51,675 nucleotides of DNA. It comes from Gallionellaceae bacterium (GTDB taxonomy: Bacteria > Pseudomonadota > Gammaproteobacteria > Burkholderiales > Gallionellaceae). This document shows, piece after piece, positions 40,774 through 44,039 of the stretch; within the stretch, counting starts at the first letter, position 1; each line of letters starts with the position of its first letter. The stretch is taken from contig VBWD01000003.1 in the NCBI GenBank assembly GCA_006218055.1, positions 1-51,675 of the forward strand. The letters run 5' to 3'. Made by a program: the position numbers and the translations under genes. The notes beneath the pieces are model-generated. The model was not told the origin of the DNA, searched no databases, and was given only the letters and a program-made list of their open reading frames with translations.

Positions 40774-40995
40774 ATGACTCAACCACGCATCACACTCGAC
40801 TCGAACAAACGCGGCGGACGTCCTTGCATCCGCAATTTGCGTATCAGCGTGTATGACGTATTGGATATGTTGGCCGAGGGTATGAGCGAGGCGAACATCA
40901 TTGAAGATTTCCCCGAACTGGAAACTGCCGATATTCGCGCCTGCCTCGCCTTCGCAGCAGACCGCGAACACAATCTCTACACCGTGGCGGTGTAA
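40774..40995 (+). CDS. DUF433 antitoxin-like protein
   Basis: A 73-residue DUF433 protein: RITLDSNKRGGRPCIRNLRISVYDVLDMLAEGMSEANIIEDFPELETADIRACLAFA, with RGGRPCIRNLRI as the diagnostic part. DUF433 proteins have a winged-helix-like fold and commonly precede PIN-like DUF5615 genes as VapB-type antitoxins. GGCGG lies in the leader (AAGGCGGTGAAAC). Its stop TAA shares the A with the ATG of the next gene (TAATG), so translation is coupled. Confidence 0.9.
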   Translation: MTQPRITLDSNKRGGRPCIRNLRISVYDVLDMLAEGMSEANIIEDFPELETADIRACLAFAADREHNLYTVAV

Positions 40996-41342
40996 TGAAA
41001 TTGCTACTCGACGAAAATCTGTCGAGGCGTATCGTCCCTTTCTTACAGACAGCCTTCCCCGATTCCTCACAAGTCGCCTTGTTGGGATTGGAAGGTGCAA
41101 GTGATAGCGAGATTTGGCAGTACGCAAAAACAAATAACTTCGTTATCGTCAGTCGTGATTCGGATTTTCAAGAACGCTCGCTCGTCTCAGGCCATCCACC
41201 ACAAGTCGTTTGGTTGAAGATACCAAATCATTCAAAGTCGGTTGTCCTCAACATTCTTCTCGATCACCATGAAGAAATCGAACAAGCCCTGCTCGAACAG
41301 AATCGTGCTTGCGTTGAAATCAGCCTGAGTATTCAAAAATGA
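40995..41342 (+). CDS. DUF5615 PIN-like toxin
   Basis: A 115-residue protein of the DUF5615 (Mut7-C-like PIN) family. LLLDENLSRRIVPFLQ carries the first acidic residues, and FVIVSRDSDFQERS carries the second acidic cluster. PPQVVWLKIPN is typical of the C-terminal half. Toxic RNase activity is presumed from the PIN-like fold and the DUF433 partner, not shown. Its end overlaps xthA by 4 bp (ATGA), an unusual linkage for a TA pair. Confidence 0.9.
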   Translation: MKLLLDENLSRRIVPFLQTAFPDSSQVALLGLEGASDSEIWQYAKTNNFVIVSRDSDFQERSLVSGHPPQVVWLKIPNHSKSVVLNILLDHHEEIEQALLEQNRACVEISLSIQK

Positions 41343-42097
41343 AAATTGCTACTTGGAACGTGAACTCCCTCAAGGTGCGCTTGCCGCATCTGTTGGATTG
41401 GTTGACGGCGAATCCTATCGACGTGGTGTGTCTGCAAGAGACCAAGACCGAAGATAAGAATTTCCCGCTGGCAGAGATCGAAGCGGCGGGTTATCAGGTC
41501 GCGTTCATTGGACAGAAGACCTACAACGGCGTCGCCATCCTGAGTCGCGATGCCATCAGCAATGTGCAGTTCGGCATCCCCAATTTTGAGGACGAACAGA
41601 AACGCGTCATCGCCGCCACCATCAACGGCGTGCGCATCGTGTGCGTGTATATCCCCAACGGGCAGAGCCTCGATTCGGACAAGTACCAATACAAACTCAA
41701 ATGGCTGGCCGCGCTGGAGCTGTGGCTGAAAGAAGAATTGGCGAAATATCCCAAGCTGGCGCTGCTGGGCGATTACAACATCGCTCCGGAAGACCGCGAC
41801 TGCCACGACCCTGTGGCATGGCAAGGCAATGTGCTGGTGAGTGAACCCGAGCGCGATGCCTTCAAAGGTTTGGTGGCGCTAGGACTCCGCGACTCCTTCC
41901 GCCTCTTTGATCAAGCCGAGAAGAATTACTCATGGTGGGATTACCGCATGATGGGTTTCCGCCGCAACCTAGGCATGCGCATCGACCACATCCTCATCAG
42001 CGATGGGTTGCAATGCAGCGGATGCGTCATCGACAAGGCACCGCGTAAGTTGGAACGGCCATCGGATCACACGCCGGTGATTGCGGAGGTGAGTTGA
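41339..42097 (+). CDS. xthA: Exodeoxyribonuclease III
   Basis: A 252-residue Mg-dependent nuclease of the EEP superfamily that acts at abasic sites and on 3' ends. Conserved motifs are ATWNVNSLKVRLPHL, CLQETKTED, LGDYNIAPEDRDCHDP, RIDHILIS and the terminal SDHTPVIAEV. Base excision repair is the usual role. It is translationally coupled to the DUF5615 toxin gene upstream. The next 57 bp lead to an apparent integron cassette boundary. Confidence 0.95.
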   Translation: MKIATWNVNSLKVRLPHLLDWLTANPIDVVCLQETKTEDKNFPLAEIEAAGYQVAFIGQKTYNGVAILSRDAISNVQFGIPNFEDEQKRVIAATINGVRIVCVYIPNGQSLDSDKYQYKLKWLAALELWLKEELAKYPKLALLGDYNIAPEDRDCHDPVAWQGNVLVSEPERDAFKGLVALGLRDSFRLFDQAEKNYSWWDYRMMGFRRNLGMRIDHILISDGLQCSGCVIDKAPRKLERPSDHTPVIAEVS

Positions 42098-42125
42098 TGT
42101 GGATTTTAATAATTGGTTTTCAGGA

Positions 42126-42147
42126 TATACACCAATTTCGGTGTATA
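42126..42147. repeat. Hairpin just upstream of the cassette boundary
   Basis: TATACACC-AATTTC-GGTGTATA forms an 8-bp perfect stem. It lies 29 bp after the xthA stop and 6 bp before the GTTAGAT core. It may be an xthA terminator without a T-run, or a remnant of an attachment site. Confidence 0.5.
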
Positions 42148-42172
42148 CCTCACGTTAGATCGGTACTTACCA

Positions 42173-42985
42173 ATGACACTTTGCGAAATTTCACAGAAGA
42201 AGTCGGGTTGGATTTGGAATGCACTCAGAAGTGCTCGCTTGCATGACTCAAAGATTGGTGAAGAGTCCATCACCGACTTCTTCGTGCTCGAACTCAAGAA
42301 GGCATCTAAAGGCACTTACTTCATTGACTCCTTTACCCGCCCGAAGGAAAAGGTAACCGGAGCCGACTGGGAACTTTGGTTCACTGGGCCATCCAAAAAA
42401 TGGATCGGCCTTCGAGTACAGGCGAAAGTCATCTCTATCGACGGCAAGCGATATGCCCAGCTTCACTACAAACGGAAAGACGGTACATTCCAAATAGATC
42501 AATTGATCACAGATGCCAAGAAACACAAAGCCACTCCGCTGTACTGTCTCTATTCATATTGGCGCAGTGCGGAGGCAGGGAAAATCCATTGGCCTTGTGG
42601 AACAATAAAGCGGAATTCGAGACTCTTTGGCGCAAGCATCATGTCTGTCACAAGCGTGCAAACACTGAAGGCTGCGAAAGATGACTCACTGAAAAGCGTT
42701 GCAAAACATCTAAATCCATTGCACTGCATATTTTGTTGCCAAGGCTACGCTCAAGGAGATCTTCCCGCTCGAGCACATGGATTTTTGCGGGCGAGAGGGT
42801 ATCTAGACCAAGACTCACAATTGTTGCTTGACGAACCACCTTACTATGTCAGTCAGATGCTTCGCGGCACACAAGAAGGCGACCTGATTGACGTCCACGA
42901 TGAGAATCTTTCTAGAGTAACCGTTATCCGTGAGGTGGACGAAGAACGATCTAACATGGCAGTCCACACGGACGCTGCGCGATAA
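42173..42985 (+). CDS. DUF6615-like protein in an integron cassette; possible PD-(D/E)xK nuclease
   Basis: A 270-residue protein from ATG 42173, which is close to the cassette core as usual; an in-frame extension to 42113 would cross the cassette boundary and is rejected. It resembles DUF6615 proteins: GEESITDFFVLEL (29-41), TGADWELWF (62-70) and GLRVQAKVI (79-87). E31, D65 and Q83-x-K85 could form a PD-(D/E)xK-like active site of the QxK type. A cysteine-rich PLHCIFCCQGY segment may bind metal. The stop lies within attC, a usual cassette feature. Nuclease function is inference. Confidence 0.75.
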   Translation: MTLCEISQKKSGWIWNALRSARLHDSKIGEESITDFFVLELKKASKGTYFIDSFTRPKEKVTGADWELWFTGPSKKWIGLRVQAKVISIDGKRYAQLHYKRKDGTFQIDQLITDAKKHKATPLYCLYSYWRSAEAGKIHWPCGTIKRNSRLFGASIMSVTSVQTLKAAKDDSLKSVAKHLNPLHCIFCCQGYAQGDLPARAHGFLRARGYLDQDSQLLLDEPPYYVSQMLRGTQEGDLIDVHDENLSRVTVIREVDEERSNMAVHTDAAR

Positions 42986-43018
42986 AGCTGCGCAGCGCCG
43001 GTGACTTTTACGTTGGGC
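42949..43018 (+). repeat. attC recombination site of cassette 1 (70 bp)
   Basis: The order is R'' ATCTAAC (42949-42955), L'' AGTCCAC (42961-42967), central stem CGCTGCGC (42973-42980) / GCGCAGCG (42990-42997) with a 9-base loop, L' GTGACTT (43001-43007), and R' GTTGGGC (43012-43018). L'' and L' pair except for one unpaired C, which corresponds to the extrahelical base of true attC sites. Spacer lengths R''-L'' (5) and L'-R' (4) are also typical. Confidence 0.75.
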
Positions 43019-43035
43019 AGACATGGAGGCTTAGC

Positions 43036-43308
43036 ATGCAAACCGATATGCATAACACAGACAATCCTAAACGTCTCTTTAGGCTTCAAAAACTTTGGAT
43101 GCGCCTTTTTGCTATTGCACAGGGGCAATCAATTGGTATGAATGAGGCGCTTGATATTCTCGTGACCCGAGCAACTACACTTTCTAATGATGATGTTTCA
43201 GACTTGAGACAAATGATTAATCAATCAGCGCAGCCCGCCTCAGAGTCTATTCACTGGAAACAAATTGTTTCTGGTGGAGGTGGCCCCGGAACGGGAAAGA
43301 GAAAATAG
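43036..43308 (+). CDS. Small protein of unknown function in a probable second cassette
   Basis: A 90-residue protein not recognised. It has a basic N-terminal helix (PKRLFRLQKLWMRLFAIAQGQ), a central acidic/helical part (NEALDILVTRATTLSNDDVSDLRQMIN) and a Gly-rich basic tail (SGGGGPGTGKRK). GGAGG lies 6 bp before the ATG. The start is 18 bp after the GTTGGGC core, as expected for a cassette gene. Its DNA is AT-rich. It may work with the preceding DUF6615-like gene or be independent. Confidence 0.65.
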   Translation: MQTDMHNTDNPKRLFRLQKLWMRLFAIAQGQSIGMNEALDILVTRATTLSNDDVSDLRQMINQSAQPASESIHWKQIVSGGGGPGTGKRK

Positions 43309-43315
43309 TGTTGCA

Positions 43316-43399
43316 GCCTAACTGTACGGCCGCGAGTATCACACCGTGCCTCTCACGAGCCTACATTAAATGAGCAAATTGCCTAACTTTACGTTAGTC
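43316..43399 (+). repeat. Possible degenerate attC of cassette 2
   Basis: GCCTAAC (43316-43322) fits RYYYAAC and can pair with the GTTGGGC start of cassette 2 through a G-T pair. GTTAGTC at 43393-43399 fits GTTRRRY with one mismatch. The L boxes are not clear, and a second GCCTAAC at 43381 pairs locally with GTTAG. This may be a decayed cassette end. The remaining 28 bp to rluA hold nothing else obvious. Confidence 0.35.
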
Positions 43400-43427
43400 C
43401 CCAAAGTCTTTTCCACCACAATCTGTA

Positions 43428-44039
43428 ATGCCCGACGACATCCTTTTCCAAGACGCGCACTTACTCATCGTCCATAAACCCGCTGGCCTGCTGTCCGTGC
43501 CGGGGCGCGGTGAGGATAAACAGGATTGTCTATCCGCCCGCATCCAACACGTATTTCCCGATGCCCTAGTCGTTCATCGTCTCGATATGGCGACTTCGGG
43601 CTTGATGGTGTTTGCGCGGGGCGAGGCGATGCAACGCGAGTTGTCGCGCATGTTTCGGGAGCGGGAAGTGACGAAGCGTTACGTGGCCCTGGTGGAGGGT
43701 GCGCTTGAGAACGAGGTTGGCGAGATCGATCTGCCGCTCATCGTGGATTGGCCGAACCGCCCTAAGAGCAAGGTGGACCACGAGTCAGGTAAGCCCTCGC
43801 TCACGCGCTATCGTTTGCTGGGCATCGAGGGTGGTGATTCCCGTGTCGAGTTGGAACCCATCACCGGACGCACGCATCAGCTACGCCTGCACCTTGCCAG
43901 TATCGGCCATCCCATCATAGGCGATACTTTGTACGATGGACGCAGTGCGGAGCGCTTGATGTTGCATGCGACGCGTTTGGCGTTCAATCACCCTATCACT
44001 GCAGAGCCCTTGTACTTTGAGAGTGACGCCCCATATTGA
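43428..44039 (+). CDS. rluA: Pseudouridine synthase RluA
   Basis: A 203-residue pseudouridine synthase for 23S rRNA position 746 and tRNA position 32, by similarity to RluA. The catalytic aspartate is in VVHRLDMATSGLMVFA. KPAGLLSVPGR, EREVTKRYVALVEG, EPITGRTHQLRLHLA and GHPIIGDTLYDG are family blocks. There is no N-terminal S4 domain, and the length (about 219 in E. coli) favours RluA over RluC or RluD. Confidence 0.9.
   Translation: MPDDILFQDAHLLIVHKPAGLLSVPGRGEDKQDCLSARIQHVFPDALVVHRLDMATSGLMVFARGEAMQRELSRMFREREVTKRYVALVEGALENEVGEIDLPLIVDWPNRPKSKVDHESGKPSLTRYRLLGIEGGDSRVELEPITGRTHQLRLHLASIGHPIIGDTLYDGRSAERLMLHATRLAFNHPITAEPLYFESDAPY

Follow-up and report, generated by a model that had tools for sequence, protein, structure and literature searches.

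In integrons, the integrase inserts the folded attC site of a gene cassette at the attI site. Cassettes without an adjoining integrase gene (intI) have been described as CALINs, and Xanthomonas CALINs away from ilvD (available text of PMC12444791) are like the locus described here in that attC cassettes occupy a fixed chromosomal place with no adjoining intI. The same text states, for integrons generally, that CALINs are usable in trans. By default, IntegronFinder 2 calls a CALIN when two or more attC sites occur and intI is absent (available text of PMC9024848): our locus, with one strong and one degenerate attC, would stay below this two-attC default if the degenerate site is not counted, and it differs further in that an attI heads its array. 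That text also has attI sites outside class 1 as poorly described and not detected by IntegronFinder. Arrays that begin with an attI and lack intI may therefore be classed as CALINs or as insertions at secondary sites. Another close case is that of the delta-attI sites of class 1 and class 2 integrons, variants of 14–18 nt, of which those tested, 17-nt ones included, recombined with IntI1 (available text of PMC12901181). Like the attI of our locus, they are shortened with the core side kept, but in that account they replace a cassette attC inside arrays, whereas the truncated attI here heads the array. In the same genus, sedentary chromosomal integrons (for example G041 and L091; G000 denotes the genome analysed here, other G-numbers its congeners and L-numbers fetched loci) have homologous attI and attC sites, with cassettes oriented likewise relative to attI, but they also have intI and a full-length attI, whereas our locus has neither intI nor the outer attI half. 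A full-text literature search, its scope leaving out most subscription papers, returned nothing on integrons or attC sites of Gallionella or on integrons of Sideroxydans. The kind of element is already known; the part worth testing is the exchange of cargo at a common attI without an adjoining integrase.

The window, the whole stretch of 51,675 nucleotides that was analysed, is contig C59 of the G000 assembly (1.66 Mb, 100 contigs, 71% complete), and its very near relative G044 is a Sideroxydans MAG (PNNY01000001.1, 89% complete). Between the end of the xthA stop codon (42097) and the start of an rluA-type gene (43428) lie two genes, each of which begins soon past a GTTRRRY core. The features of the locus are as follows.

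41339..42097, + strand: xthA (exodeoxyribonuclease III), left neighbour; TIGR00195 268 bits, cut-off 182.55
42108..43519, no strand: tract identical to G044, spanning both att boundaries and stopping inside rluA
42120..42160, + strand: stranded, left-truncated attI, recognised by attI profile and side by side with G041, G045 and G043; core GTTAGAT 42154–42160, inverted repeat arms 42127–42133 and 42140–42146
42155..43012, + strand: cassette 1, its left core and the R'' of its own attC exact reverse complements; crossover taken to be at G/TT
42173..42985, + strand: cassette 1 gene, DUF6615, 270 aa; PF20320 57.4 bits, cut-off 23.8
42949..43018, + strand: attC1; covariance model R1 41.7 bits, E 5e-9; R2 48.6 bits
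43013..43393, + strand: cassette 2, cores GTTGGGC 43012–43018 and GTTAGTC 43393–43399; crossover taken to be at G/TT
43036..43308, + strand: cassette 2 gene, 90 aa, without a family match over a curated cut-off; weak PADLOC match PDC-S19, E 0.028
43316..43399, + strand: attC2, degenerate; R1 13.1 bits, E 0.39; R2 11.1 bits, E 2.7
43428..44039, + strand: rluA-type pseudouridine synthase, right neighbour; PF00849 114.7 bits; NF007543 219 bits, below its cut-off of 286

The cassette block is real and well-formed. Covariance models were used to find attC sites because a home-made R''/R' scanner did no better than shuffled controls (two window matches, one site read on both strands, vs 0–2 in five dinucleotide-shuffled sequences). 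Model R1 was built from 10 attC sites, eight from congener integron arrays and two beside DUF6615 relatives, with none from the window; the broader R2 was built from 82 matches, one of which is the G044 copy identical to attC1. Run over the window with filters off, R1 gave a match whose coordinates coincide exactly with those of attC1, and the runner-up was an unrelated match at 14.2 bits (E 0.2), so the well-formed attC that the initial annotation had read in cassette 1 is borne out by a model independent of the window. As that annotation also had it, the first box of this site (R'', ATCTAAC) and the GTTAGAT at the left end of the cassette are exact reverse complements, the right core (R', at 43012–43018) is GTTGGGC, and the stop codon of the first gene (42983–42985) falls within the attC. 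The bottom strand of attC1 folds as expected, giving a stem that contains bulged bases. Cassette 1 has both marks of an integron gene cassette, an attC covariance match and a complementary left core of its own. The crossover point of cassettes usually lies at G/TT. The attC2 site has the right ends (6 of 7 bases complementary by eye) and a degenerate middle, and ranks third in the window by R1. The start codon of cassette 1 lies 12 bp past the first core, as first given, and that of cassette 2 lies 17 bp past the second, not 18. Matches to attC at E 0.01 occurred in 31 of the 34 genus genomes, and two weaker ones lie elsewhere in G000: C24:13920-13990 (29 bits) and C73:83296-83388 (28.4 bits), the latter by eye resembling an attC of the genus type whose second half is disrupted.

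That the cassettes adjoin two housekeeping enzyme genes holds, by TIGR00195 for xthA and by PF00849 for the rluA-type gene. Both cassette genes had been called AT-rich compared with these neighbours, and their GC is indeed lower (0.482 and 0.436 vs 0.559 in xthA and 0.583 in rluA), so the cassettes are AT-rich just moderately. No Rfam match was found in the window at gathering scores. Immediately upstream of xthA, at 40774–41342, DUF433 and DUF5615 (PIN-like) genes adjoin, a pair that we take to be toxin-antitoxin-like. The rluA of G044 (L035 7256–7933) is about 70 bases longer than that of the window, near window position 43829.

DUF6615 was detected in 2 of the 399 genomes of the order, G000 counted, and viral contigs held no relative; 22 plasmid records carry relatives, each below 60% identity, and the family is therefore not limited to cassettes. 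Relatives at 77% and 70% identity occur in L036 and L037, where the attC beside the gene scores 74.3 and 53.5 bits, respectively, both sites having been training members; L037 has an additional attC, outside the training set, at 50.4 bits. Residues D65, E67, Q83 and K85 are among those invariant across four relatives. The pattern D...QxK is a mark of restriction-endonuclease-like nucleases, and our guess from it is that the product of this gene is a nuclease. Its structure model had a mean pLDDT of 40.7, a PDB sequence search with the protein returned nothing better than E 0.075, a PADLOC search gave no match, and the full-text literature search, within the same scope, returned no paper on DUF6615. 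For the cassette 2 gene, the plasmid search gave no match, and among the 399 order genomes there was one marginal match (E 0.006) apart from G000. The unrelated 134-aa protein that is the junction cargo of G048 (L062 2305–2706) reads GAD...VQLK, compared with GADWE...VQAK in DUF6615; by this motif, both of these cargo genes may be nuclease-like.

Judged by homology, the left edge of the cassette block is an attI site, overlooked in the initial annotation. The sequence from intI to the first cassette in G041, G045 and G043 ends GGATATACACC-6 nt-GGTGTCTACTTTACGTTA, and window positions 42123–42157 read GGATATACACC-6 nt-GGTGTATACCTCACGTTA. We built an attI profile from 15 sites that each adjoin an intI of full or nearly full length; the window, G044, G020 and G049 contributed none of them. 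The sole match of this profile in the window (42120–42157, 25.5 bits, model positions 25–62) lies at the core of cassette 1 and begins 22 bp past the xthA stop. The site is homologous to integrase-linked attI sites and ends at the first cassette core, but only its core-side half is present; the outer half, with the second TTATACACC, is absent. The hairpin of the attI was also considered as a terminator and dropped, as no T run follows it.

No integron integrase was in view in the initial annotation, and our search agrees: nothing exceeded the TIGR02249 cut-off in the window or in the rest of the G000 assembly, the strongest of the weak matches lie on other contigs and in our reading resemble XerC/XerD-type recombinases, and where a complete integron would have intI adjoining attI, xthA occupies the place, 22 bp from the attI match. 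In the genus, 15 of the 34 genomes (G000 counted) have a match over this cut-off, and G044 and G020 (99% complete) have no intI at E 1e-30. An absent intI is weak evidence because drafts break at arrays and G000 is a 71% complete assembly in 100 contigs; in G020, three further contigs that carry attC sites stop 68, 185 and 475 bases beyond an attC. Throughout the order, the attI motif (up to 2 mismatches) was found at 18 places in 17 of the 399 genomes, with a count of 0 for a reversed-pattern control; besides the window, six of these places adjoin a near full-length intI, five adjoin partial matches, and six lack any match at E 1e-5. With a longer motif (up to 3 mismatches), 12 places were found in 10 of the 34 genus genomes: three have intI, three have pieces of 21–58 aa (among these a C-terminal piece of 26 aa, E 0.001), and six, including the window, G044 and G020, have no match at E 0.01. 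Other stranded attI sites in the genus have pieces of intI beside them in some cases, which makes a deletion of this gene plausible; at the xthA–rluA junction itself no piece was found, so there the loss is at most presumed.

We observed further attI sites away from this junction. A stranded attI in G021 (L172, G021:C15, about position 2627) lies 31 bp past the stop of a ribonucleotide-reductase-like gene and is followed by one gene; the upstream gene has matches to adenosylcobalamin-dependent (NrdJ-like) ribonucleotide reductases below curated cut-offs, and a search of 7 kb at E 0.1 detected no attC. The attI profile also matched L134 (G015:C17, 1905–1965, 43.6 bits), L135 (G015:C8, 4330–4389, 33.4 bits) and L146 (G009:C1, 3377–3437, 44.8 bits), all with attC downstream and no intI match within the fetched stretches. 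In G015, intI is present on contig C8, and G009 has none at E 1e-30.

We read the rluA locus in 23 genomes of the genus, leaving out G023, which yielded only a paralogue. The two housekeeping genes are adjacent without an insert in nine of these and have an insert between them in three (G000, G015 and G020), while the fetched stretch holds no xthA in ten and the contig ends in one (G001); G044 and G048, added afterwards, both have junction inserts. The DUF6615 gene is confined to G000 and G044 among the 30 fetched genus xthA loci, and an empty-site search matched only the occupied junctions of the same two genomes. The reading of this block as an insertion withstood the comparison, with no sign, among these loci, of the DUF6615 gene in syntenic position across distant relatives. 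In G020, the attI common with the window lies at the same junction, together with the right flank CCCCAAAGTC, and the cargo differs, being a DUF1375 protein with a poor attC (9.5 bits, E 5.1). The stretch between the xthA stop and the core aligns gap-free in G044 and G020, with 50 of 62 bases the same, so the junction is the same and was not freshly transferred. Three other genes are the cargo at the junctions of G048, G015 and G001, where the searched stretches held no matching attC, and the left flanks of G015 and G048 gave no attI profile match; both results count against the attI-slot reading given below.

A tree of ten flanking genes, partly missing in G001 and G048, whose placements are weak, sets (G000,G044), with support of 100/97, against (G048,(G015,G020)), with 100/100 for G015 and G020. 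Because G000/G044 and G020 share the attI and straddle the deepest split of the subclade, the junction attI is probably older than its present cargo; if it was inherited vertically, it would be older than both the subclade split and that cargo. The attI could also have been carried between lineages by recombination: xthA alone leaves the five close genomes unresolved, and its identity between G044 and G020 (0.936) is slightly above that between G044 and G000 (0.930).

Taken together, we consider it likely, if well short of certain, that the locus is a CALIN headed by an attI: the integrase of this integron slot was lost, and the cargo of the slot changed later, probably via an integrase acting in trans. 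The left-truncated attI and the two cassettes between xthA and the rluA-type gene would be the remains of a chromosomal integron, and the stranded attI would have stood at this junction already in an ancestor of the subclade. Cassettes may then have been inserted and replaced there by an integrase that came in trans, from another copy or transiently, and could still use the shortened attI. Because the cassettes sit between co-directional genes that abut in nine congeners, we suggest that the cargo may be transcribed by read-through from xthA.

The strongest alternative, which we regard as unlikely but worth weighing, is that a longer ancestral array stood at the junction attI, that lineages lost different cassettes, and that none arrived after the integrase was lost. 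Excision or deletion can remove cassettes, loss of different members would likewise yield different cargo, and the terminal attC is poor and relic-like in both G000 and G020; against this, the junction cargo genes of five other genomes never occur together in one locus among the fetched loci compared, and an attI slot with later changes of cargo remains our preferred account.

A separate question concerns the tract identical between G000 and G044, which runs for 1,412 bp, compared with 103 bp for the second-longest run of identity. Outside 42065–43519, identity is 0.876 over 26,449 aligned bases, and nearby it is about 0.91–0.94 in most 500-base windows. We infer that the block moved by homologous recombination, because the tract stops within rluA rather than at an att site. 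A chimera of assembly or binning between draft metagenome bins is a somewhat more doubtful prospect than the ancestral array: G044 is a MAG, G000 is a 100-contig draft, and identity steps up from about 0.91–0.92 to 1.0 and then down again, but both contigs continue for kilobases on each side with their own versions of the neighbouring genes, G020 independently has the attI at this junction, and a chimera would bear solely on the identity of G000 and G044. Very improbable is insertion at a secondary (attG-type) site by an integrase in trans, with attI never present, to which the missing nearby intI and the nine congeners with adjacent neighbours would be congenial: a cassette adds nothing left of its core, so insertion at a host site would bring no attI along, and what lies to the left is not plain host sequence but the core-side half of an attI with homology to the integrase-linked sites of congeners, which leaves, of the initial choice between a CALIN and a secondary-site cassette, the CALIN-like arrangement of cassettes without a neighbouring integrase.

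As an attI-led slot, the locus bears on how cassettes may be housed in this genus. We put forward, tentatively and at somewhat less than even odds, that stranded attI sites are working slots behind housekeeping genes, loaded by an integrase in trans, with host-gene transcription driving the cargo. The candidate slots would be the xthA–rluA junction, the G021 attI behind the NrdJ-like gene and the two further attI sites of G015, where intI lies elsewhere. The differing cargo of relatives at the xthA–rluA slot suggests that such slots are loadable by an integrase that is produced elsewhere or has meanwhile been lost, and loci with the same attI and flanks and different cargo make slot exchange testable. 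Should cassette exchange at such slots be continuing, the entry points for cassettes in a genome would outnumber its integrases, and not every CALIN would be a dead end.
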